A DNA stretch of 28,631 bases, from assembly GCF_003324165.1 (NCBI RefSeq), contig NW_025407847.1, positions 1-28,631 on the forward strand, read 5' to 3'. Below the pieces are notes generated by a model. The model saw only the letters and a program-made list of their open reading frames with translations, ran no database searches and had not been told where the DNA came from. The position numbers were made by a program, and so were the translations under genes. Of this stretch, positions 4,028 through 26,939 are shown piece after piece (position 1 is the stretch's first letter; the number at the start of each line of letters is the position of its first letter). The DNA is from Naegleria lovaniensis (taxonomy: Eukaryota > Heterolobosea > Eutetramitea > Acrasida > Naegleriidae).

Positions 4028-4035
4028 CACTGGAT
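4028..4035. repeat. Target-site duplication, right copy
   Basis: CACTGGAT immediately follows the right TIR and is identical to 136-143. Confidence 0.93.
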
Positions 4036-4770
4036 ACTCTGGGGAGCAGTGTCAATATTTTAGTTGCAATGGAATTCCATCAAATTCATCCGCCGTCTGT
4101 TCTTCGAACGGTAACTGTTTCACTCCAAACAATTGCACATGCTTTGATGGTTATTCAGGCTCAGATTGCCAATTCTATCAGTGCTTCAACATTTCCCATA
4201 ATAGCAGTCATGTATGCTCGGGACATGGTTTATGTACACAACCAAATGAATGTCAGTGTACTCCAAATAAGTATTGGGGAGATCAGTGTGAAACAACTTC
4301 ATGCTTCTCCATCATTTCCAATTCTACTAATCCAAAACCATGTTCTGGCAACGGAAATTGTGTTTCATTTGACAATTGTTCCTGTGTCACTGGATACTCT
4401 GGGGAGAAGTGTCAATATTTTAGTTGCAATGGAATTCCATCAAATTCAACTTCTGTATGCTCTTCTAACGGTAACTGTTTCACTCCAAACAATTGCACAT
4501 GCTTTGATGGTTATTCAGGCTCAGATTGCCAATTCTATCAGTGCTTCAACATTTCCCATAATAGCAGTCATGTATGCTCAGGGCATGGTTCTTGTACAAG
4601 ATCAAATCAATGTCAATGTACTCCAAATAAGTATTGGGGAGAACAATGTGAAACAACGTCATGCTTCTCCATCATGTCTAATTCTACTAATCCAAAGCCA
4701 TGTTCTGGAAATGGGCTCTGTGTGTCATTTGACAATTGTTCATGCTTTGGTGGTTATGAAGGTTTAGATT
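4028..4770 (+). repeat. Tandem 360-bp EGF-repeat units
   Basis: The EGF part of the receptor is built of 360-bp (120-codon) units, each holding three cysteine-rich modules of about 40 residues. Unit spacing is exact: the segment starting TCAATGTACTCCAAATAAGT at 1 recurs at 4253 and 4613. Position 1 becomes 3893 once the transposon is subtracted, again 360 bp away. The copies differ at few positions, which implies recent duplication or gene conversion. Confidence 0.88.
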
Positions 4771-7700
4771 GCTCTGTAAACTCGAACTCTATTTCCTTAA
4801 CAGTTGAAAACGCGCCGTACTATATTTCGAGCAGAAACAGGACCATTGAAATTGAAGGTCATGTCATCAACGTTAACACGAGTGAAATATTGAATGAAAC
4901 CATTGTCTTCAATATTCATTGCCTTAATTGTACTGACGAAAGTAGTACCGTCTTCAAAGTAGTACATAACAAAGGATTGAAGACGTTTGATTTCTCGCTG
5001 TTTAACATTACTACAGCTGGAAGATATTTACTTATCATGAATGCATCGCTTTTCGACAACAATTCGCCGTACAGATATTGGAAACAAAGAACTGTCAATT
5101 TTTTCGTCACATATATTGGTGATACTGAGCTAGTGATGCACGGACTACCACATGCATTGGTCACAAACATCCAGCAGTCATTTCAAGTCGTCATTTCAGC
5201 TGTTAAATTTCCTCAACGATCCGAAGAAATTCCAAACAGCTACCTTGGGACAAGCACATTGATGAATAATGCTTCCAACCTTGTGTCTTTTTCTATAGAG
5301 CTCAAAGACACATCTTCCAGTAACAACACTCTGTGTTGGACCTCTGGAAAAACCTATGCTTCAGGAACTCTTGTAGAAGGAGGTTCATTCACCACTTCCG
5401 TGCTTTCGCCAGTTGTCTCATTACAATGCAATTTTCTTCACACAGTAACTTCAGCATCGCGAGTCTCGTTGAATGTCGTACTCACTAATGACAAAAATCC
5501 AACCGATGCTGTACAGTTTAGTTATGAAATACCAATGCTCAGCTTTAATTTTCCACTGGTACGAAATAGTACCATCATTAGTCCTAAACATGGCGTTGCC
5601 CTTGACACGTTGTTTTCAGTTTCTCTGATAGATGTGACTATTTTACATAGTGTTCCTGCCTCTCTTTTTCCATTGGAGTTTGCTTTTGGATTTGTTTTGG
5701 AAGATTCCAAGCAAAAGATAAGACTGACCCCTTTTTCACAACATTACAACAATGTCAATTTTGCTCTTCCATTCACTTTTTATCAGAAACCAGCACTAAA
5801 GGAACAGTTAGACATTTTACTTTTCATTCGAGACGTCTTTTCAAATGAATATTCTCAAACCATTGGACAAGTAGAGATTTACCCCAACACAAACGCAGAC
5901 AGCCTTACTGAAAAAGTGAAACTTAACAAGAATTTGGCATTGGCTGCCACCTATGATCGCTCTCTTCTCGCTTCTCAACAATCTAGCAACACGTCTATCG
6001 ACATGACTCTTTCTGCTGTTCAACAGTTAACTCTCACAGCACTTGATAAGGACTATTCACAATCACTGCAGGCCTTGTCACTTCTTTCGGAGCAGTCCTT
6101 TGTGGAACAGCTCATTGCTTCAGCACTGACAGAAAAGGTTGGTCAGTTCCTGAGCGAAATGAAACAACTCTATATCAGAGAAAAGAGGCAATTCGGTTTT
6201 GTCCAAAAAACGGTAGACACTGATTTACAGTCTTCTCTTGAACTCACATCCAATATCATGAAACGTGGACTTTCCATGAACGAAATTGCTGAACTATGCC
6301 AAAAGATCTCAACCATTGCTCAAATAAGAGAAAATCCAACACTGCTTCATTCCAATTCTTCCAGTGTTCCAACAGTGAGACATTTATTTTCTGAACAAGT
6401 GAACATTACAGTCATGAGCTTTGTACAAGACGTGTCTCTTCAAAATTATTCAAAGAACGCATTCTTACAAGATGTTGAATTTAATACTCGATACATTCTC
6501 TCAAAATATGACGGTTTCTCTCAAGAAATGGGAATCAAGAAGGTTTCTTTCACAAAGAGTGTGAAAACACACAAAGAGGATACAAATCAACTCATTTCAT
6601 CTGTAAAGGATTTTTCCTTCTCAAAGAATATCCAAGAACTTGCATTACAGGATTTAGAAGAACCTTTAATCTTGTCATTTAACATTCAGAATCAAAGTTT
6701 AGATCTTGGAAGCAACATTTCAAAACTATCTTGTCGCTACTGGAATGAAACGACACAATCTTGGAATACGAATGGATGTGAGGTGTTGAGAGTGGTGAAC
6801 GAAACTCGTGAAGTATTGTGCTCGTGCAATCACACCACCATGTTCTCTGTCTTTATGCAGTACGACAACTCTTCGTTGCAAGGAGAACCAAATCGACAAC
6901 AATTCTTGTCAACATTATTTATTGGACAAGTGACTGTTGGAGTTTTTTACTTTCTAGCTTCAGTAATTATATTGATTTGTTTATTCCTATTTCGTACTAA
7001 ACAGCCCATCAAGAGTCGATTGTTTACACCATTTGTTGGAATGGTAAGCTTGATGATTCAAAGCATTTTGATTTCCATGACTCAAAAAGGAGTACTTTTA
7101 TCTTTGACACAAGAAAATTTTACACAATCAAGTGTTACACATTGGGAAGGTTCATTGCAAAGTGCTAATATTCTTGGTAATGTGGCCATGATTATTTCTA
7201 ATACCTTATCCATTACTGCGATTGTGTTTTATTTAGTTCAAGTCCTGAGATTTCAATTTTTGAAATACTTTTATCATAAAATGATGATGAACAATCATGT
7301 GAAGAATGGAGAGAAATCAAACACCAATGACATCACTACTCCACAACAATTTGGTCAGCTTCCACCCATTCAAAAGATGATCAAGCAAGTGGCATCAAAA
7401 TCCCTTTCTACCACAGTATTAGTCATTTGTTTACTATTGAATTTGGGTTATTGGACGTTGTTTGTGATTTTAGTAAGGTCTGAAGCAATTTCTCCTACAG
7501 CATACACCTTTGTGGTCTCCATTTCATACACTGCATTCGTTTTATTGTGTGGACTTTTAATTACAGGAGTTGCTGCAAGCGATTTTATCTATTCCTTTAT
7601 ACTCTCCATGATTCAGAGACATGGGCCAGAACAACAACCAGCAACGCATCTCTCCAATGTTGGAAATTCCAAGTCTGTTGTAGCTCCACCAGAAAAGATT

Positions 7701-8810
7701 TCCGGAACGTCTAAAAAAGTGGTTCAATGGCTTCATGTGAAACCACTTCGAGATTGGTTTGCAGATTTGGATGCTCCTCTTTATTTCAGAGGAGAAATGA
7801 TATTATTCATGTTATGTTACACTTTCCTGATTTGCAACCAATTAACAGGTCTCTATACCTTGATGAACAAGGATGCTCCGTCACAACAGGCAGTAATGAC
7901 CTTTGATGTGATTTCGTTTGTATTTGAAATCTTATATGTCGCCACCTATATTCTAGTGTTTGGAGGCTTTTCTTTGCTTATTTTGGCTTTTAACACATTG
8001 AAACCAATACTTTCAAGAAGAACGAAGAAGCAAGGATCTGTTACAGATAATCAGACACAAGACGAGACAGAACTTCAAACTCTCTTAAATAGCAAGGAAG
8101 GAAGAGAGTTAATGGAAGAATTTTGTGAAAAGGAATTCTCGTTAGAGAACATGTTCATGTACAAGGACCTGACGCAGTTTAAAACCGATTGCAAGTCAAA
8201 TTCAATCAGCTCTATACATTCATTTATGAACAACATTCATTCCAATTACATTGCTTCAGGATCTCCAAAAGAAGTGAATATTTCCTCTGCTTGTAGAAAA
8301 GAAGTTCTCAAAGTGTTCAAAGACATTCAAAATACATCTTCACAAGAATTGAAAGAAGTCAAGAATATTCAACACACACACCCTCAAGACATGACTGCGT
8401 TTGAGCAGTGTATTAATCATCTCACTGAAGAAATTCTGTTAAATCTTGGAGACACATTCTCAAGATTGGCCACTACGCCACGATATTCTCAATTTTGTGC
8501 TGTGATGAATAATAAGGAAGAAATGATGAAGCAAGTTAATCTCTTGTGAGACTTTGGTTGGGATTGCTATTGATCGAATAATGGGTCTCTGATTAAGGTT
8601 ACACCATAAAGAAGGCTTTGGTAAGGTTGTGGTGGACCGATCCAAAAACCAGTGTGAATAGTAGCATTTGATAACGCTTCAACAACCATAACATATTTGG
8701 ACCAAATTTAAAGAAATGAAAATTATGTGATAATAATAAATAATAAATTAAGGTGATAATTGTTTAATCTTAGTAGTGCTTCACTTATTTAACTATTATA
8801 CATGTCAAAT

Positions 8811-14096: not shown

Positions 14097-15884
14097 TCAC
14101 TTTTTTCTCCTTAATGCCTTTTTTGAGGTATTCTTCATACGATTCTTCAATGGAATGGAAGCTTTTTCTTCTTCATACGAGGATAACGAATTGGGTTCAC
14201 GATTCACCACATCTGCATTTCGTTGCATGGCCACATATTGTTTACATTGCAACTTTTTCGAGGCATATGAAAGGGCCTTTCCATTTCTTCGGATGGCCAA
14301 GAGCACTATATCAAGATCTTCACGCAATGCTTCAGATGCATACTGTAAAGCCATGGGATTATGCTGAATGGCTAATTTGACCAGTTCCTTATCATTTCGT
14401 AATTGGTCATTGGCGATTCGAAACAGACCGTGATTCGATCCAAATGCTGAGCTCTGGATGAGTGCTGTCACAATTTCACGATCCTGTGCAAAACATCTAG
14501 GAAGGTAATGCATACACCAGCCATTGCTTTTCACAGCTTGTAATGCAAATTCACGATATTGACTCTCAGGAGGTTTGAATTTAAATTTGGTTAGACTGAA
14601 AGGATCTGTTTTCACAGCCAAGAGTTGTAACTGTTCATCTTGTTGTAGCTCTTCAGGTAAGTCTCGTAAGAGGCGACCATTTCGTTCCAATACCAAGGTC
14701 AAGGTTTGTTCATTCAACTTTAAACTTCCACTGATGTGTTGGTAAGTACGCACATTACCATTCAGAGCTTTCATGACAATTTCAAAATCATTTTTCAATT
14801 CTAAAGACGCATACGAAATGGAATCGGGGTAGTTCTCGATTGCTTTCAGGACTAGTTCTCGATCGTTTTTGAGATCAGAGGAGGCCTTTCTGAGAAATTG
14901 ACCACCGATTTGAACAGCCTGTAGCATAAATTCCTTCCTGTGAAATAATTCGTGAGTTTTGGTTAAGTAGGTCAGCAGACACTCGGGGTCTATTTGGAAC
15001 AGTTCCATCACTAGCTCAGTATTTTGATTTTGTAATTCATCAGAGCAAAATTTGAACGACTTTGGATTTTGACGATAAGCTTCCTTTACAATCTGAGGAT
15101 CTTTCTTAAACTCCATGTCTGCATATTGCAAACATAATCCATCTCGTTGTACACAATGTAAGGTAAACCATCGTTGGGATGTGAAGATGGATGGAAGGAT
15201 GCTGTACACAGATCTTTGAATGTGATAAGGAAAATACTTTTTCGATTTAAATTTCTCAGCATCGTATAAAGTGTGATTGAAAGTACGATTTTGCATGGTT
15301 ACATAATGTTTGAAATTAATTTTTTGATGATTCAATCGAATAATGCTATGCTTGGGATCCAAAGTCAACGACATTGAATTTTGAGTGGACATTCCCAGAA
15401 GGATCACTGTTCGAGCATGATTATATTTCCACAATTCCACACGATTCAACATGTTACTGACATGATCGACTTCATCACTCCAAGCAGGTCTTCCATTTGT
15501 AATTTTCAGAAATTCCCTCAAACAAAGTGGAAATTTTGTTTTAAATTCCATTTCTCGTTTCACAATGAATTCTTCATCCACTGGAGGCTCAGAAAGTGGT
15601 TTGCGTAAACACAAATTCTCATCATGCCACATGTATTGAAACTCTCTTCGTGCTACTGTACGACATGCCTCCTGAAAGCACATGCATACATGTTGGGCCA
15701 TTTCACGATCTTGTTCATCCAAAAATTCGGCAATACTTTCGATCGTGTCAGAAGCAAGAAAGAGAGTGGGAATGTTTGGATCTGTGGTTTCATTTTCAGG
15801 AATGATTTCTTGGTTTGAATTTTCATCATCACTGTGAGGCAACACACCGTTCGGAGAAAAATTCCTACCCAGACGAAGAAACAT
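14097..15884 (-). CDS. F-box-like / DUF4116 repeat protein
   Basis: I start at the ATG at 15884 (595 residues). The frame is open to 16016, but that would overlap the stop of the preceding gene at 15961. The N-terminal part (about residues 38-80, from P-T-L-F-L-A-S-D through D-R-E-M-A-Q-H-V-C-M-C-F) looks like an F-box. The C-terminal half contains repeated helical units of the DUF4116 type, recognised by forms such as N-D-R-E-L-V-L-K-A-I-E-N-Y-P and L-R-E-D-L-D-I-V-L-L-A-I-R-R-N-G followed by A-L-S-Y-A-S. F-box proteins are substrate adaptors of SCF ubiquitin ligases, and the repeats would be the binding surface. That role is an inference. The C terminus is strongly basic (K-K-A-L-R-R-K-K). 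It follows the next gene by only 76 bp in the same orientation. Confidence 0.78.
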   Translation of the reverse strand: MFLRLGRNFSPNGVLPHSDDENSNQEIIPENETTDPNIPTLFLASDTIESIAEFLDEQDREMAQHVCMCFQEACRTVARREFQYMWHDENLCLRKPLSEPPVDEEFIVKREMEFKTKFPLCLREFLKITNGRPAWSDEVDHVSNMLNRVELWKYNHARTVILLGMSTQNSMSLTLDPKHSIIRLNHQKINFKHYVTMQNRTFNHTLYDAEKFKSKKYFPYHIQRSVYSILPSIFTSQRWFTLHCVQRDGLCLQYADMEFKKDPQIVKEAYRQNPKSFKFCSDELQNQNTELVMELFQIDPECLLTYLTKTHELFHRKEFMLQAVQIGGQFLRKASSDLKNDRELVLKAIENYPDSISYASLELKNDFEIVMKALNGNVRTYQHISGSLKLNEQTLTLVLERNGRLLRDLPEELQQDEQLQLLAVKTDPFSLTKFKFKPPESQYREFALQAVKSNGWCMHYLPRCFAQDREIVTALIQSSAFGSNHGLFRIANDQLRNDKELVKLAIQHNPMALQYASEALREDLDIVLLAIRRNGKALSYASKKLQCKQYVAMQRNADVVNREPNSLSSYEEEKASIPLKNRMKNTSKKALRRKK

Positions 15885-15960
15885 TTTTTTGTGTGGTGTA
15901 CTGCTGTTCAAGGTGGAGATTGATTTCCAAACAATTTTATTTACTCTTGAGCAAGGCAAA

Positions 15961-18341
15961 CTAGTTTTCTGTCTTGTTCGTTTCCAAAGATCTACCAATT
16001 TTGTTTTGCATGGCATCAGAGAAATATTGTAAACTCTTTGGACATGCTAACACTAGTTCTACTAGCTCGTCTACTCCTGACACTAAATGGACAAGAGACT
16101 CTGCAATTTCCTTATTTAATTTCTCTGCACCGGTTCGTTCAAATATCTTTTTCAAGACAATCATATCCCTATCCCAAAGAAATCTGACCATGTTACTGGA
16201 ATACCAAGGATTATAGGTAAAGGTTGCTCGAATGATAAAATCTTTGGTAATCAACGGTACTATCAGATCAGGATCAACAGAATACAGGCGTGAAAAATGG
16301 TTATGGACTGATATCTTCACAAGCTCAATAATAACTTCATCGTGTGACATGTGGGGAACGTTGTGAAGGGAGTGTACATATCTAGTTGGTGATGATTTTA
16401 GTAGAGTGACCACTTGAGAAGGAGTGATCACATCTTCAATATTAGAAACTCCGTCAAATTGAGCTGTTTGAAGATAGCGTAAAAAGTTAGAGTATTTCAA
16501 TACATGATCTCTCACAATGAGTTTTCCAGTCTCCACATTGGTTGAAAATATGATGTCATGTACCAATTTTGGCCGGTCTCTACTCCGTCTGTAAAATAGT
16601 CTGTGTTGCTTGTTCCATACTTTTAAATAAAATTCTTCAGTTCTTTCATTTTCAGGCACAAAATCCAAGGTATAAGGTAAGCATGCATGAATAATGGTTG
16701 AATGTGTCTTAAGCTCTTCAGGAAGCTGTGAAAAAAGTTTTGGATAAAAGGAAACCATTTTGGTAACAATAGACTTGTCACTAAATGCAAATGTGACAAG
16801 GTCTGAGGCCATTTTCTTTGCAGTTTCATCGACACACTTTGATTCTAATGTCTTGCATAAAATATGTTTGGCGAGGGCAGGTGCCATTCTTCCACTCTTC
16901 ATGTATCTCATTAAATACTGAATAGTTGGAGCAGAGAAAGAATCGGACATAAAAAATTTGAAATAGCCATGATCTTTTTCCATCAAGCGTTCAACAATCT
17001 CCATCATGTTCCACTTTCTGAATGGTGGATACCCTTCCATACCATCCATTGGTTCTCTAAAATTATTATAAAAATATCCATACGGATCAAGATGCACATT
17101 CTCTACATTCTCAGTGCCAACATGAAAATAAGCGTAAAAGTATTTCTCTAATAATTGATAGGCCATTTTGAAATTTCTAAGAGTGAAAAATGTAACCTGT
17201 AAAGCATCCAGCATAATATCCTTGGGCAATTTAGTAATTGCAACCAATTCGGTCACCACGTTTAGCTTTTCTTTCTTGAAGGCAACACGTAAAATTTCTC
17301 TATCGATCATTTCACCTCTAGAAAAGTAATGGTACAAAACATGCCGACGAAGCTTGGAAAATCTGATACCTTGTCCATATTCATTGTGGAGAAGATGGTT
17401 GCGGCTCGGCTTACAAGAAAGGACTGCTTTGAGTACATCATTATCAATAGTGGCACCATAGGGTATATGATTCAGAAGAGCACCATTATGTTTCATAGCA
17501 GCAATCATGACATCCTTGTCAGATCTAAGTCTAGTGGATAAAGCTATGTAGCAATTTGGGCTTTCACGAGATGCTTTAAACGCCTTTTTAAGAATGAACT
17601 CTTTGTCATCAAGTAAACGCTCAGGAGTGTAATGTTTAAAATCTTCAATACATTCAAAAATGGTATCTTCTTGCAGAGGTCTCAGATAGATGTCATCAGT
17701 GAGCTCGAAAGATAAATCGCAATACTTGTGGTCTGCTTTCAAATATTTGAATAAATTTCGTTGATACTTCCCTGTACGAATTAAAAAGTCGAAAATATCA
17801 AATTGTAGTGCTTTGGAGAAATTGGGATCATCACTGGGAGATCTTTCCACTTTAGAAATAAGTTTGTCATTTTCAAATTTACGGGATTTTCGTCATTACG
17901 AAAAACAATGATTCAACATTGAAAATAATCATTGAGAGTACAGTACGCACCAGTTAATGCAATAATTGAGTCCGCGTTTACATTAGGCGAGCTTATCAGT
18001 ACCGACTTGTAATCCTTTGAAATCTTCTTCAACACTAGATACCTCCTATTGTAGGTCATTATTTCAGAAAAGGCTGTGCAAACTAAACAAAACCGATTAA
18101 AATCAAATAATGGAATAAACTCTGAAACGTAGAGCCAATAATCTTCCGAGAGGTGGTGCTGATCATGGTTGATATCAGTAACCTCCCGATGACGATATTG
18201 AATACTTTTTGAAAATTCAGGACGTGATTCTTTGATAGTTTCCGCTAAATTTGCGTTAAATTCAAAATCTGTCAAATTGAACACAAAATCATCATCGTCA
18301 AGCACAGTAGCCTGCGTGTTGGAAGGATTACTACTAAACAT
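15961..18341 (-). CDS. F-box-like / helical-repeat protein (DUF4116 type)
   Basis: Two exons, 17951-18341 and 15961-17849, joined through a 101-bp intron (donor GTGCGT, acceptor TTCTAAAG) into 759 residues. Phase is kept: the codon at the junction is GTG. Exon 1 has an acidic N terminus and an F-box-like segment (L-S-E-D-Y-W-L-Y-V-S-E-F, then F-N-R-F-C-L-V-C-T-A-F-S-E-I). Exon 2 has repeated units related to DUF4116, for example L-R-S-D-K-D-V-M-I-A-A-M-K-H-N-G-A-L-L, although many are more diverged than in its neighbour. Shared architecture and tandem placement suggest an old duplication. Function is unknown; a ubiquitin-ligase adaptor is plausible. It shares a promoter interval with the armadillo gene, which runs the other way. 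Confidence 0.78.
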
Positions 18342-18617: not shown

Positions 18618-21600
18618 ATGTGTAAGTAAATTCACACCAACTGTTTTGACTTTGTGTATTCACACCAACTTGATCATCATTGATACTTGATCCAAATAAT
18701 GGCACTCTCCACATAACGGATCGTTGTGCACAACAATTACTCTATTACATCAATCTACCGATATAATTTCCAAATATTTTATTTTGTACCAACCCAACTT
18801 GTGCTTTTCTCAATCTTGATCATTTCTGACTTTCTTTAACAATTTGTGAAATCACATCATCAATCGAATATCACTTCTCAATTCACACATGTCCAGCTGG
18901 AGACGTTAAAGGAACACTTTCCAAAGTCAAAAGTGGAAATGTCTCAAGTCGGCTTGCTGCCATTGGAGCTCTCTTCTCCCTTGCCAGTGATGACGACATT
19001 CGTGAAGAAATTAGAGAAATGGGAGGAATTGGTATTTTAGTGGGTTGTTTGGATGAAAGTGCTGATCCTCGTATTCCACGTCAAGCTTGTGGTGCTTTGT
19101 TGAATATGGCCAACGATGACAAGTGTCGTGAAGAAATTCGTGATTATGGAGGTATTGAATTAATTCTCAAACTCATTGAGAATCAGTTCAAGGATGCTAC
19201 CAGTTTGGAATATGCCACTGGTGCTTTATTAAACTTGTCATCCGATGATGAAACAAGAGAAATGGTTCGTGAAGCCAATGGTGCTCCCATTCTTGCACAT
19301 TGTTTAAAGGATGCTCCGAGTGATGAAGTTTTGAGAAATTCTGTGGGATCCGTTGCTTCCTTGTGTTTCGATCCAGAATTTACTCGTCAATTGGTGAGTG
19401 AAGGAGCATTGCCTCATATTATCAATGCTTTGGAATCAAAGGATGGTGAGACACGTTCAAGAACCAGTGGTTGTATTTGGAATCTTAGTGTCACCTCAGA
19501 TGAAACACGTGAAGCATTGGCTCGTGAAGGATGTTTGGAAAAATTAGTGGACTTGTTGAAACATCACGAAGAGAATAATGAAGATCCTGAAACTGTTGGA
19601 AATTGTGTCATGTGTTTATCTATCTTGAGTTCCAATGATTTGGTTTCTGAGACACTTCGTGAAATGGATGGATGTTTTGAAATGATTGTCAAGTTTTTGA
19701 CCAATTCAGATGCCACCATTGCTCAGAATGCTGCAGCTGCTGTTTGGAATTTGGCTCACAATGATGAAAATAAGAAGGTTCTTGCAGGTTTGGATACAAT
19801 GGCTGCTTTGATTCCATTGTTAGACGCTTTCCAATCAGAAAGTCAATGGGATGCTTTGGAAAAGGTGTTGGGAGCAGTGTTGACTTCAAGCACCCATGAT
19901 ACCATGGCTGATCAGGTAAGTACAAGGTGTGAAATGTTTGAATTGATTTTGGAATTCTAACTCATATTTCACATGTGTTGCGTTATTCATATTCATGTAT
20001 TCACTGTGCTGCGTTGCTATTTTCCATATCTCGTTTGTATATGGATGAATATGTTCACATGTCACTCACTTTTAACATTCTCGTTGTTGTTAATTGTCCC
20101 AACAGTTCCGTGAAAATAATGGCTTCCCTTCTTTGAAATCTATCATTGAAGGCAAAGTAGATCCAAATTCCATTCAAGACGATCAACACAAGAAATGTGT
20201 ACTTTACGGCATTATTGGTTTTGCAGTTCTTGCTTACAATGACAAGAACAAGGACGAAATTCGTGAGTGTGGTGCTCTTGCAGATTTGATTGAGTTACTT
20301 CGTTTGGAATATGACGATGACTTGCTCGAGAAGGTCACTGCTGCTCTTCTCAATTTGACTCACAACATTGAAAATCGTGTGGCCATTCGTAAATTGGACG
20401 GTATTGCACCACTCATTGAATTGTTGTATCACCCCAATGAAACCATTTCTATGAATGCAGCTGGTTGTTTGTGGAATTTGAGTAATGACGAAAGTTGTAA
20501 GGCTGTCATTCGCAGTTTGGGTGGTCTTAAACCCTTGTTGACCATTATTGGTGGTGGTAAAGTGGCTCCCAAGTCTAAAAAAGATAGAGCAATTAGTAAG
20601 GAAGCTATTGAGGCTGCCAATCGACTTGTGGGTGGAGCTGACGACGAAGAACCTGTTCCTGAAGAGAAGTTTGATGTCGCTGAATTCATTGAAGAAAAAT
20701 TCAATCCTAATAAGGAATATGAAAAGTTGGATGAACAAGTTGATAAACCATTGAAGAATCAACCTCAATTGAATCGAAATGGAGAACAAAGAACTACTAC
20801 TGGAGCTGGTATTGAATATGGAGAGGAAACTGGTATGACTCCAGCCAAGATCATTGTCGGAGCTGCTCGTATCGACATTAAGAATCGTCGTAGACAAGCT
20901 GAAATTGAACGCGAAAAGAAAGAAGCTGAAGAAAGAGAGCTCAGAAGAAAGGAAGCTGAAGAACGAGAACGTGCTCGAAAGAAGAAGGAGGAAGAGGAGC
21001 TCAGACGTAAAGAAGAAGAGCAAAAGAAGAAACAAAAAGAAGAAGAAGAAAGAAAACGTAAATTCGAGGAAGAAATGAAACGCAAGGCTGAAGAAGAGGA
21101 ACGTCAGCGATTGTTGGCCGAAGCAGAACAAACCAAGAATCAATCCAAAGATGCATTCGATGCCAAACATAAGAGAAAGAATGTCAAAGATGAAGACATT
21201 GATTGGGATGAAATCTATGAAGATGGTTTCACACCTTCCAAAACCAAAGAAGAAGCAAGAGACAAATTACAGGGTCAAATCGATGAATATTCCAATTTAA
21301 TTGATCCCTTCAATTCGAATGGTGTTCGTGACCAATTGACTGAGGATGATCTCAAATTCATTGAAAGTGAAATTGAGAGAGCTAAAAACTTTTTGGAACA
21401 AAATCCAAATGCTACCAAAGAACAAATCGACGATGCTCGTAAGGAATTGGATGCCAATGTGAAACCTCTCATTGAGAGAGCCAAAGCAAGAAAGGTCCTC
21501 ACGGACATGACTCAAAACATTCGTGATCGATTAATGAATGATTCCGAGTTGTTGAATAATTTGACTCCTGAGGAGAGACGTGAACTCGAGCAAGCATTGG

Positions 21601-24600
21601 CCGAGATGGAAGAATGGCTTCGTGATCACCCTGATGCTACCAAAGAAGAAATTGAAGCCAAAGAACGTGAACTCTTATCCAAGATTAAACCCATTCTCGC
21701 AAGAGCCAAAACCAGAAATGATTTGGAGAATTATGCTCACGACTTGAGAAAGAAAGCTTCTGGTGAGGATGAAGAGATGGAATTCGACTTGTTGGGCGAC
21801 GAAGATAAGAGAAATGTACACGATGCCATTCGTGAGATTGAGGACTACTTGTTGGAACATCCTCATGCCACCGCACAAGACTATGAAGACAAGTTGCAAG
21901 AGGCTAAAAAACGTGTCGATCCCATTCTGAAGAAGGCTCGCGCCAAGAAGGAATTACTCGAATACGCTTCGGGCATGAGAGATCGTTTGCAGAATGATCC
22001 CGATTTGAAGAAACGAATCACTCCTGAGGAGAGAAGAGGTATGGAACAAGCGTTGGATGATTTCGATAAGTGGATCAAGAATCACCCTAATGCCGATTTA
22101 GAGTCTCTGGAGAAGCAGAAACAGCGTTTGAAACAAAAGTTGGATCCTATTGTCTCACGTGCCGATGCACACAACACTTTGGATGAGTACATTAATCGTA
22201 CCAGAAAGAGAATTGATGATAAGGATGATTTAGGTGATTTATTGGACGACATGGATAAGAAGACTCTCCAAAAGGAATTGAAGGACTCGGAAGACTTTTT
22301 GAAGAAGGTAGAGAAGGAGCCTTCCAAATACACAGCCGATGACATTTCTCAAAAGAAGAAGGAACTCAAGGAGAAGATGGCTCCACTCTTGGAGAAGGCC
22401 AACAAGAGAAAGGATCTCAAGGACTATGCTCGTCGCGTGCGGGATGTACTTGCATCGGATCACGAGTTGGCTCCATTCCTTTCACCAAAGGAAAGAAAAC
22501 TCATTGAGAATGAAACTCAAGATGTTGAAGATTGGATTCGTAACAGCAAGAAGGCCACTCCACAACAAACTGAGGAGAGAAGAAAGAAATTCGAAGAGAA
22601 GGTGAAACCAGTGTTGGATCAAGCTGCACAGCGAAAAGAACTCTCCGATTATGCTCAAAGAATTAAGGATCGATTGGAGGATCCTCAATTTGTGGACAAG
22701 TTGAAGCCAGAAGAGAAGAAGGCTCTCCAAGATGGACATGATGAGTTGAAGAACTTTTTAGCAAAGAATCCTGAAGCAACTTCCAAAGATATTGAGAAAC
22801 AACGTGATAAGGTGAATGAAAAAGTTTTACCAATTTTGGAAAGAGTCAGAGAACAAACAGCATTGGAGAATCATGTCAACAATGTTCGTGACAAAGTGCG
22901 TGACGACCCACAATTGAGTAAATTCCTTTCAGATAAGGAAAAGAAGGCCATTGAGAAGGCTGTTCAAGACGTCGAGAAAACTCTCAAGAACAAGCCTTCC
23001 ATTGCTGAGTCAAAGAAGGCCAAGGATCAATTCAATGACACTGTGAAACCTCTCATTGAAAATGCATTTGCTAGAAGCAAGCTCTCCGATCACGCTGATG
23101 AAATTTTGAAGGAAGTGATGGAAGATCCTCAAACTACTTCAAAGGATAAGGAAGCTGTCAAGAAGGCAAAGAAGGACTTGATAGATGACTTTTTGGCAAA
23201 GAACCCAGACGCCACCAAAGATCAAGTAGAACAACAACGAAAGAAATTTGATGATGCCGTATCTACTGTCACCGATCGTATTCATAAAAAGAAGGAATTG
23301 GAAAGAAAACTCAATGATCTTCAAAGAAAATTGGATGATCCAGAAAGCGCTGTCTGTACCAAATCAACACCTGAGGAGAGACAATATTTGGTTTCTAAAT
23401 TGAATGAAATGAACAAATTCTTGGATGAGAATCCAAATGCCACCACCAAACAACTTGAAGATAAGCTGAATGAATTTACTTCACAAGTTGAACCAACCAT
23501 GAAGACTTGTGAAAAGAGAGCTCAATTAGATCAATTGGCCAACAACATTAGAGATCGACTTGTAGATCCTAATGATGATTTATGCAAGTATTTGAATGAC
23601 AAAGAAAAGCAACAACTCAGAGATGCCACCATGGAAGCTCTGAACTTTTTAGAAAAGAATCCAGGTTGCTCTGGAAATGACGTTACCCAAGCCAAGAAGA
23701 AACTTGATGACAAGACCAAGGAATTGCTTGAAAGAGCCAAAGCAAGAGGTGGTCTTTATAGAAAGGCTGGTGGTTTGATTAGCGATGCATCTAATTATGG
23801 AGAAGGTGGTCTTGGAGGAAAATTGAATTCCGTTGAAAGAGCTGAACTTGTTGACAAGTGCAATGAAGTCATTTCCTTCTTGGACAAGAATCCAAATGCT
23901 ACTACAAAACATATCAAAGACAAGGAGAAGGAACTTAACAAGGTTGTGAAACCAGTTTTGGAAAAGATCAGCGAAAGAGAAAACCTCATTGACTTGGTGA
24001 AGGGCATTCGTGATCAAGTATTTGACATGGACACTGGTCTCGTTGAAGACGAAGATGAAACTAAGAATCTTCTCGCAGCAACTCAAAAGGACGCTGCTGA
24101 TGAATTAGAAGATTTATTGAACGGACCTACACGTACCTCCAAATCTGCAAAGGACGAAAAGGCACGTTCTGAAAAATTGGGCAATTTCCTCACAGACGAA
24201 GAGAAGAAGAAGATTGATGCTGCTACAAAGCATGTCTTGGATCTTGTGAATTCAGATCCAAACCTTACTGTCTCTGATTTGAAGGAACAAGGAAGAAATG
24301 TCAAACAAGATACAGATAACATTTTGAAAGCAGCCAAGACTAGATCTGATTTCAAGGATTACTTGACAGGAGTTCGTGATCAACTTAGAGATGAAAAGGA
24401 TTTGGCAGCCAGCAATTTGAGTGAAACCGATAAGAAACAAATTGAAAATGCAGTGAATAACGCACTCGATTGGTTAAACAAGGAAGGAGCTTCTGCATCC
24501 TCAGACGCTGTAGACCAAAAGAAGAAAGACGTCATGAATCAAATTGAACCTCTCCTTCAAAAAGCCAAAGAAAGAGGAGAATTAGAAACAATTGCCAACA

Positions 24601-26939
24601 AGTTGAAGCATCGTTTGGAAGACGACGTTGATTTGACCTCTGCTTTGACCGATAAGGAAAAGAAGACTCTCGAAAACGAAGTGAAAGAGGTTTTGGACTT
24701 TTTGGCCAAGAATCCAAATGCCACCACCGAACAATTAATGGATCGTCGTAAGAAATTCGATGAAAATGTGTTACCTATTTTAGAAAAGACAGAAGCAAGA
24801 AACAAGTTGAAGAATTATGCCAATGAACTTCGTACTCGACTCTATGATGAAGATGATCTTGGTGGAAAACTGTCTGAACAAGACAAGAAGAAGATTGAGA
24901 ATTTCATTGATGAAGCTGTTGACTTTTTAGAAACCAATCCTAATGCCACCAAAGAACAAATCGACCAAAAACGACACGCCCTCGAGTCGAAAGTTGCTCC
25001 AATCCTTAAGAAGGGAGATAAGGCAAGAAAGGCCGAAGAACTTGCCAATGATATTAAGAATCGTTTGGAGAATGATTCCACACTGAGAGAAGCATTGACC
25101 CCAGAGGAACGTAAGATCGTCTCAGATGCAACCAATGATTTCTTGGATTGGCTTGGAAAGAATGGAGCTACTGCCACAGAAAATGAAATCAAAGACAAGG
25201 AGCGTCAATACAAGGAGAAGGTTGATCCAATCTTGAATAAGGCCAAGAACCGAAATGTTCTCAAAGAACAGGCCAAGAAACTCCGAGACAAGTTGAATCA
25301 AGATCCACAAGTCTCTGGTTTAAAGTTCTCCGACTCGGAAAAGAAGGAACTCGAGAAACACATTCAAGATGCCATTGATTATTTAGATACTGTAGGAGCC
25401 AATACTGCCACCACTGCAGATCAAATCAAGGACAAGATCCAAGACTTTAAGAATAAGACAAGTCCCATTGTTGAGAAAGCCAAACACAGAAGAGCTTTGG
25501 AAAAGTATGCCACAGGCGTTCGTGATAAGATCCAAAACGATCAAGCCATCTCATCAAGACTCACACCTGAAGAGAAGAAACTCATCGATAACACTGCAAA
25601 GGAAGTATTGGATTGGATCCAACGTCATGGAGATGAAGCCTCCTTACTCGATCTGAAAGAAAAGATGCGTGAAGCCAAGAACAAGATCGAGCCAGCCATG
25701 CAACGTGCAGAGAAACATAAGCAATTGGAAGAGTATGTGAACAAGATTCGTGACAAGATAAATGGTGAGTTGAAGGATTGTCTCACTCCTGAAGAAAAGA
25801 AGATCATTGAGGCTGAAACCCAAAAGACTCTCGACTGGTTGAGCAAGAATAAGACTGCTCCAATGAGTGCTGTCGAAGCTCAACAACGTGCACTTGATGG
25901 AAAGATTTCAAGCATTATGGAGAAGGCTCAAACCAAGAAGGATTTGGCAAACTTTGCTCATGCCATTAGAGATCGTTTGAAGAACGATAAGGAATTGGAT
26001 CAATTGCTCACTGCTGAAGAGAAGAAGATGATCAATGATGCCGTTCAGGAAACATTGGATTGGCTCTCAAAGAATCCTAATGCCTCACTCGCCGATCTCA
26101 AACTACGAAAGAAGAAGTTGGAAGACGTTGTGAACAACGTATTGGGTGATAAGGAAGCTGCTGAAAACTTTAGAAACTATGCCGAAAAGATTCTTGAAGT
26201 CTTGAAGAAGAACAAACAAGTTCAACGTGATTTGACCGACGAAGAGAAGAGAGATGTTGAATTGTTCGCAGAGACAGCCAAAGATTGGCTTCATCAAAAT
26301 CCAAATGCCACTGCTCGTCAAATTCGTATGGAAAAGAAGAGACTCGAAGAAAAGTTGGGCAAGATCAAGAAATTCAAATTTGAAATTCCTAATGTGACCT
26401 ATATTGGTAAATTCTCTGAAAAGTTACGTTGGGGTGATGAATCGAAACGAACCAAAGATATTTCAGCACTGATGGGATCCTATATCAAGAAGGGTGATAC
26501 AACCACCAAGACTTCCAAGCCAGTTCAACCTCCAACCAAACAATACAAGATGGTCATTCCACAACGAAAGCTCACCAAAGAAGAAGAGGAAGAGTTGAAA
26601 CTCTTTGAAACCATGAAACATAATAAGGGTGGTCTCATTGAAGCTAAATTACAAAGTTTGATGGGAAGTGTGAATGCTGGAGGTCATGGTGCAGGATTGG
26701 TTGAAGAAGATCCAAATGCTGAACCTGCTGTGGTATATCCATATGCTGAATTGAAGAATAACAAACAAAAGAAGTATCCTCCCGGCGTTGATGTCAATAA
26801 GAGAGAGCAATATTTGAGCAATGCTGAATTCTTGCAAGTGTTCAAGATGAGTCGTGAAGAATTTAGAAAATTGCCTGAATTCAGACAAACAAAGGCTAAG
26901 CGTGATGCAGAATTGTTTGCTTATGCCTACGAACTTTAA
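18618..26939 (+). CDS. Giant ARM / Hsp70-lid-repeat / villin-headpiece protein
   Basis: Proposed exons 18618-18621, 18897-19915 and 20106-26939 give 2,618 residues. The second intron (GTAAGT...CAACAG) is secure. The first, leaving a 4-nt coding exon (ATG T), is inferred because the armadillo frame has no ATG upstream of residue ~43. Residues about 10-510 are armadillo repeats (A-L-L-N-L-S, G-C-L-W-N-L-S-N-D-E). Residues about 600-685 form a Glu/Lys/Arg coiled coil. Residues about 723-2431 hold ~22 helical modules of about 75 residues with the pattern L-x-x-Y-A-x-x-I-R-D-R-L, L-T-P-E-E-K-K, W-L-x-x-N-P-N-A-T, P-I-L-x-x-A, close to the Hsp70 C-terminal lid. Residues 2552-2612 are a villin headpiece (G-V-D-V-N-K-R-E-Q-Y-L-S). 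There is no Hsp70 ATPase domain. The headpiece suggests actin binding and armadillo repeats suggest protein docking, so a cytoskeletal scaffold is the likeliest role. AATAAA is at 26956. Confidence 0.85.
21247..26375 (+). repeat. About 22 tandem Hsp70-lid-like modules (~225-230 bp)
   Basis: Counting from the Leu that opens each module (L-x-x-Y-A-x-x-I/L-R) to the P-I-L-x-x-A that closes it, I find 22 units, most of 72-78 residues. One unit (near 24000-24350) carries an extra acidic stretch of roughly 45 residues. The units differ greatly from one another in protein and DNA sequence, so the array is old and held by selection rather than freshly duplicated. The best match to the Hsp70 lid is the unit near 24811-25020, with D-D-L-G-G-K-L-S-E-Q-D-K-K-K-I followed by F-L-x-x-N. 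Confidence 0.85.
26736..26918 (+). other. Villin headpiece domain coding segment
   Basis: This segment encodes residues about 2552-2612 of the armadillo/lid protein. Y-P-Y-A-E-L-K, G-V-D-V-N-K-R-E-Q-Y-L-S and F-K-M-S-R-E-E-F-R-K-L-P follow the family pattern. The usual Trp of the L-P-x-W-K-Q cap is Phe (L-P-E-F-R-Q), and the following K-K-x-x-G-L-F is K-R-D-A-E-L-F, so F-actin affinity may be changed. Confidence 0.85.

Follow-up and report, generated by a model that had tools for sequence, protein, structure and literature searches.

What kind of protein is encoded at positions 18618-26939 of the forward strand in the first 28,631 nucleotides of contig NW_025407847.1 from the amoeba Naegleria lovaniensis? 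The window, by which we mean that whole stretch of 28,631 nucleotides, is the beginning of contig C26 in the genome that we searched (30,690,286 bases in 97 contigs), and the gene in question carries a long array of similar units between armadillo repeats and a villin headpiece. Over 284 residues, the enolase of this genome has two differences from PDB entry 7ugh, an enolase of Naegleria fowleri. A first-pass annotation had proposed that the array consists of about 22 units of ~75 residues related to the C-terminal lid of Hsp70, that the Hsp70 ATPase domain and beta substrate-binding domain are lacking, and that armadillo repeats precede the array and a headpiece follows it at the C-terminal side. 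These proposals are borne out by the evidence set out below. As judged by sequence comparison, the units almost certainly share ancestry with the Hsp70 lid and do not belong with spectrin-like or FF-like repeats. It also seems likely that the protein as a whole would serve as a spectrin-like spacer, with lid bundles providing the mechanical length that separates the headpiece from an armadillo docking platform.

How many units are there, and where do they lie? An iterated profile, trained on this same protein, finds 22 units with a median of 75.5 residues at residues 273-1979 of a 2,162-residue ATG frame. The array, whose limits rest on that profile, on the unit boundaries and on the lid homology, thus covers 1,707 residues, or positions 21267-26387 on the plus strand, on which all parts of this gene lie. 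Units 1 to 11 start at 21267, 21486, 21711, 21942, 22167, 22404, 22629, 22851, 23070, 23286 and 23514, and units 12 to 22 at 23742, 23973, 24339, 24570, 24795, 25020, 25248, 25485, 25713, 25932 and 26157. All but one (21/22) span 72-79 residues; unit 13 (23973-24338), the weakest, is 122 residues long and consists of helix B, an insert of ~46 residues in the B-C loop, and helices C and D. Its helix B, ERENLIDLVKGIRDQV, is found at the normal spacing; when that sequence is shuffled 1000 times, its score is equalled once. The part of the unit from residue 1222 on, without its own helix B, still matches the lid profile at 13.4 bits. Mean pairwise identity among the units is 26.4%, versus 8.0% for shuffles within the same alignment (maximum 8.5% in 200 shuffles).

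What identifies these units as lids? Of the 35 matches with E up to 1 that a profile of the units obtains in the PDB, the first 16 are all Hsp70 lids, with E from 2.5e-15 to 1.7e-8, and the top match, GRP78/BiP, extends over positions 1-73 without a gap; the best match outside Hsp70 is PCIF1, at rank 17 (E 1.5e-3). Conversely, five of the genome's own Hsp70 lids, combined in a profile, match 22/22 units at 13.4-64.2 bits, the top score being that of unit 16 (24795-25019), the unit closest to Hsp70; 1,100 shuffled units score no higher than 11.5 bits and reversed units no higher than 4.0. Scanning the protein as joined from its three exons with this own-lid profile gives 25 rows, 22 of them inside the array and the others, at residues 520, 605 and 649 ahead of it, at chance level. 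Among 108 control frames from other loci, one (L057; 25.4 and 54.2 bits) overlaps the array and was set aside, and after it the top control scores are 3.2 bits for the lid profile and 7.6 for the unit profile. Profile-profile comparison of units and lids returns a probability of 99.1 and E 4.8e-19. In the genome, a two-unit query finds 20 listed places, 13 in this gene and seven in or beside genes matching PF00012, the Hsp70 family; the 11 places listed for the 2,162-residue query are the gene itself, five Hsp70 lids, four other headpieces and one charged frame. No competing family attains a level comparable to that of these lid matches. That a spectrin-like or other three-helix repeat should have come to resemble the lid by convergence is, in our view, highly improbable: although the topology is common to any up-down-up three-helix repeat, and charged helical sequences match many families weakly, convergence would have to yield a gapless match of 73 positions at E 2.5e-15, with no spectrin among the 35 PDB matches, and a match of the genome's own Hsp70 lids to every one of the 22 units. 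Spectrin (PF00435) is also unlisted for the frame in Pfam, where HMMER filters drop most matches above ~0.1, and the seven spectrin-like places listed in the genome are all elsewhere.

The limits of the units and their hydrophobic core can be compared with lid structure. According to a crystal-structure paper, helices C and D of HSP70 pack with the second half of helix B as an antiparallel three-helix bundle, which has been solved alone as residues 537-610 and 534-615 (PMC4110032). Our units start at the position of HSP70 residue 538 and end near residue 610, and each unit therefore corresponds to a three-helix bundle made of the end of helix B, helix C and helix D. For human HSP70, the same paper lists 14 residues that make up the hydrophobic core of the lid (PMC4110032). 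With these mapped via the genome's own Hsp70 lid L006, hydrophobic residues (A, V, I, L, M, F, W, Y or C) account for 92% of the units' residues in the 14 columns, versus 19% in the remaining columns, a result that 0 of 20,000 random column sets equal. If the core pattern is slid by 1-2 columns the value is 5-28%, and if it is slid by 3-4 columns 38-62%, as expected of the helical period.

Several observations weigh against the assignment to the lid family. The core mapping depends on aligning the units to one of the genome's lids, a procedure that itself favours hydrophobic matches, and is the least independent of the five tests. Pfam names no lid family, and PF00012 appears in just 3/22 units, with a best E of 0.042; in some units it is outscored by FIVAR (5 units, best 4.8e-4) and MYO10_CC (1 unit, 7.9e-4), these being among the 25 families listed, of 91, in the single-unit scan. 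Over the whole 2,162-residue frame, GST_C_5 reaches E 2.1e-4, which is under its cut-off. Convergence with FIVAR or GST_C_5 was considered and rejected: the Pfam matches are weak and below cut-off, neither family recurs throughout the array, and lids alone match the unit profile in the PDB at E<1e-3. As a separate observation, the best non-Hsp70 match to the lid profiles, at E 1.5e-3 and 1.2e-4, is a helical segment of PCIF1, PDB 6irx chain A residues 115-174, and possibly this part of PCIF1 is a distant lid-like bundle.

Is the rest of an Hsp70 present? For the ATPase domain, PF00012 is not among the six Pfam families listed for the 2,162-residue frame, and none of the 20 genome places listed for PF00012 is in this contig. 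For the beta substrate-binding domain, PF00012 is likewise unlisted for the frame, and the Hsp70 matches cover the lid end, reaching at most ~40 residues further upstream. The EEVD tail of cytosolic Hsp70 has 0 occurrences in the protein model of 2,618 residues.

Are the armadillo part, the array and the headpiece really parts of one protein? A three-exon model (18618-18621, 18897-19915 and 20106-26939) of 2,618 codons has zero internal stops in the joined frame, and both introns are GT..AG; this stop-free model is compatible with the gene limits of 18618 and 26939 that had been annotated earlier. The domain order is armadillo repeats, charged helix segment, 22 tandem units and villin headpiece. 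Putative exon 1 is only 4 nt long (ATG T, 18618-18621), placed there on the strength of the adjoining GTAAGT donor and the stop-free joined frame, and is the least sure part of the model; the other possible start, an ATG at 19019, gives the 2,162-residue ATG frame. Exon 2 (18897-19915), with its splice sites, contains the first part of the armadillo repeats, for which the Pfam Arm family in the frame at 19019-19957 has E 7.7e-39 and 131 bits over six stretches. The repeats continue at 20106-20750, in the same frame as the array (E 6.6e-19, 67.7 bits, two stretches), such that armadillo repeats are found in both large exons and both matches exceed the PF00514 (Arm) cut-off of 20.6 bits. Exon 3 (20106-26939), an open frame, encodes these last repeats, a linker, the lid array, the headpiece and the stop. 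A fusion of two adjacent genes in the model, or an assembly error, might be suspected from the 4-nt size of exon 1, but we think it most improbable, as the last armadillo repeats, the array and the headpiece lie together in a single uninterrupted frame of 2,281 codons (20094-26939), and intron 2 has consensus ends and maintains the frame. The same common frame argues at the genome level against separate armadillo and repeat genes, the finding that the first-pass annotation had named as a refutation. Between the armadillo part and the array lies a highly charged segment of 88 residues (20868-21131; 75% D/E/K/R), a candidate single alpha-helix, in which 45/84 i,i+4 pairs are of opposite charge; the shuffle mean is 24.0, and 0/2000 shuffles equal the observed number.

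How might one bundle be joined to the next? At 21/21 junctions, 11 residues separate the conserved Pro in helix D of one unit from the conserved Leu in helix B of the following unit. This count includes a re-reading of unit 13, whose junction was first read as 58 residues from a misplaced cut and whose helix B in fact lies at 11. Inside the units the spacings vary, with six values from B to C and five from C to D (unit 13 as first cut). Pro and Gly together account for 1.3% of residues after the conserved Pro at the D end and 3.4% in helix B, and for 11.3% and 16.2% in the loops. Spectrin repeats are up-down-up bundles joined by a continuous linker helix, and the combination of constant junctions with variable loops suggests a spectrin-like rod here as well, with putative continuous D-to-B linker helices. 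The fixed junctions would, moreover, suggest selection on rod geometry. By calculation, the core-facing sides of D and of the following B would be offset by ~102 degrees along a straight D-to-B helix, and the rod would therefore twist. At about 3-3.5 nm per unit, a rough estimate, the rod could be roughly 60-80 nm long. A difficulty for this geometry is the conserved Pro of helix D, which in 16/22 units lies within the putative continuous helix and may kink it.

What, then, might the protein do? In the scenario that we favor, the 22 tandem Hsp70 lid bundles would build the rod of a large modular linker protein. Each helix D would continue without a break as helix B of the following bundle, and the bundles would thereby stack head to tail in a stiff rod. 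The armadillo end would dock on a partner protein, the charged single helix would give added reach, and the headpiece end would touch either the actin cytoskeleton or some other ligand. The lid would have been adopted for its mechanical and folding properties, and not for chaperone action.

The main rival to the spacer holds that the array is a multivalent binding scaffold, its lid surfaces gathering copies of a partner such as a chaperone cofactor, ribosomes or cargo, with the rod being secondary. Among the PDB matches of the unit profile is 4kbq chain D, an Hsc70 lid fragment, whose partner in that structure is CHIP. Where helix C begins, the charges of an E/D-K/R motif are also kept in a lid-like manner, the acidic residue in 22/22 and the basic residue in 21/22 units. 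A precedent is provided by the yeast Hsp70 Ssb, which is reported to bind ribosomes by the three-helix lid bundle through loop BC and helix D (PMC5123055). Against the scaffold, few columns are conserved outside the core and capping positions, and mean unit identity is 26%. The array is also without EEVD, and its constant junctions suggest selection on rod geometry. We therefore regard the scaffold as unlikely and retain the spacer as the preferred interpretation.

Does the headpiece attach the putative rod to actin? The array is followed by a linker (26388-26732); when 26391-26936 is searched with Pfam at E up to 0.1, the only match is VHP, beyond the linker. The villin headpiece itself, of ~62 residues (26733-26918), is supported by Pfam and structure matches. 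Its core matches PF02209 at 26811-26918 (E 4e-13, 49.5 bits versus a cut-off of 27), and a 62-residue match to the dematin and villin headpieces indicates that it is complete, with both subdomains. For villin, a 2025 structure report gives as actin contacts Trp812, Lys813 and the C-terminal carboxyl of Phe824, shared by dematin (PMC12674126). In the present headpiece 0/3 of these published contacts are strictly kept: Phe replaces Trp, Arg replaces Lys, and the Phe is non-terminal. Six residues, AYAYEL (26919-26936), extend past the usual terminal Phe, whereas the other four headpieces found in the genome all end directly at Phe; the Trp-Lys pair is present in 2/4 of these. Pfam lists no gelsolin domain for either of the two frames. 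Actin binding by the headpiece is thus plausible but doubtful, and should not be assumed. Of the earlier suggestion that a rod links a docking platform to actin, the predicted rod fits the constant junctions, and the link to actin is weakened by the altered contacts.

What evolutionary steps might account for such an array? Most likely, a eukaryotic Hsp70 lid was captured a single time and was duplicated in tandem long ago. In a tree of the 22 units and seven Hsp70 lids, the units fall on one side of a branch with support 92/93, a value that is not starred and for which the bootstrap had not settled, which tempers the case for a single origin. Left out of the tree were L007, whose lid is split over two frames, the modules of the Hsp110-like gene L014, and L016. 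The split between units and lids is compatible with one capture and later amplification, without placing the class of the source Hsp70. At the DNA level the array goes unreported by Tandem Repeats Finder (periods up to 500 bases), and the copies are therefore old; we infer old duplications, with the protein pattern maintained by selection.

Might the source instead have been the double lid-like region of an Hsp110? The genome contains a gene that we read as Hsp110-like (L014), with two consecutive lid-like modules at residues 620-689 and 704-787. Cut out, these modules score 24.1 and 33.2 bits with the unit profile, and 1,000 shuffles of each reach at most 15.8 and 9.8; a two-unit array query aligns to L014 across 123 query residues (E 9.9e-6). 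Units two apart are also more alike, with 29.1% identity versus 24.9-27.4% at offsets 1 and 3-7. By permutation of unit order this difference has p 0.0034, offset 2 being one of five offsets tested after the means of seven had been seen, and the two-unit periodicity hints that the array may have grown by pairs. Scored with the unit profile, the genome's ordinary lids fall on both sides of the question: L006, L009 and L008 (56.1, 55.2 and 53.0 bits) score higher than the Hsp110 modules, and L010, L011 and L013 (38.2, 36.1 and 20.6 bits) score in their range. We consider derivation from Hsp110 improbable and an ordinary Hsp70 lid the better candidate. The double module of L014 is nevertheless a small precedent for lid duplication. 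Of its two modules the second outscores the first, and the double module may be a general feature of Hsp110.

Does the array have relatives? Among the best-scoring candidates of our genome searches there is no second lid array. In viral and prokaryotic DNA, two viral scans and one scan of genome contigs, each for single proteins, gave 7, 23 and 50 pattern matches, none of them confirmed; these scans bear in no way on other amoebae. Among the titles and abstract openings listed by our literature searches, which covered little subscription material and in some cases gave only part of the records matched, neither a tandem lid array nor a Naegleria armadillo-headpiece protein is described, and a database entry that has drawn no discussion may exist. 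The lid fold itself is known; it is its use as a tandem rod for which we found no account.

The window holds other genes as well. At 4028-8549 there is a membrane-receptor-like gene with EGF, GPS and RGS matches, near the start of which lies a 360-base tandem duplication (4028-4741) with 91% matches. On the minus strand at 14097-17508 are two frames that match DUF4116, one of them with seven stretches.

The array bears on how the Hsp70 lid is viewed. Research on the lid treats it as a chaperone's moving cover; here it appears as a free-standing, repeatable block, in 22 natural variants with a common core and a fixed junction, and it can evidently evolve separately from the ATPase and the substrate pocket. 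It seems to us, on balance, somewhat probable that the protein represents a new class of cytoskeletal rod, in which the lid bundle, detached from the chaperone, was amplified into a spectrin-like repeat by an independent route. If so, the term Hsp70 lid would also denote a structural repeat family. The array can be regarded as a natural experiment in the stability of lids and in the conversion of a capping domain to a rod. The lid array also explains why Pfam leaves most of a protein of 2,600 residues unlabelled, and the cell biology of heterolobosean amoebae gains with this protein a large linker of an unusual and possibly cytoskeletal kind.

How does this protein compare with known systems? 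It resembles villin and dematin in having a complete C-terminal headpiece, and differs from them at the three published actin contacts, none of which is strictly conserved, and in that a gelsolin domain is not among the Pfam families listed. With the lid region of Hsp110 it shares consecutive lid-like modules; L014, however, has just two, on a chaperone with an Hsp70-type body. From the Hsp70 lid, as in human HSP70 (537-610) and BiP, the units have kept the sequence family, the length of 70-75 residues, the core residues and the helix order B-C-D, whereas an Hsp70 differs from the present protein, which has 22 lid copies in tandem and no detected ATPase domain, beta domain or EEVD tail. The spectrin-type rods are those of spectrin, alpha-actinin and dystrophin. 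The repeat family here is another one, with ~75 positions versus the 105 of PF00435, and homology to spectrin was not found in the Pfam and PDB searches; what the two would have in common is the proposed principle of construction, in which three-helix bundles joined by continuous helices form the rod of a large linker protein.

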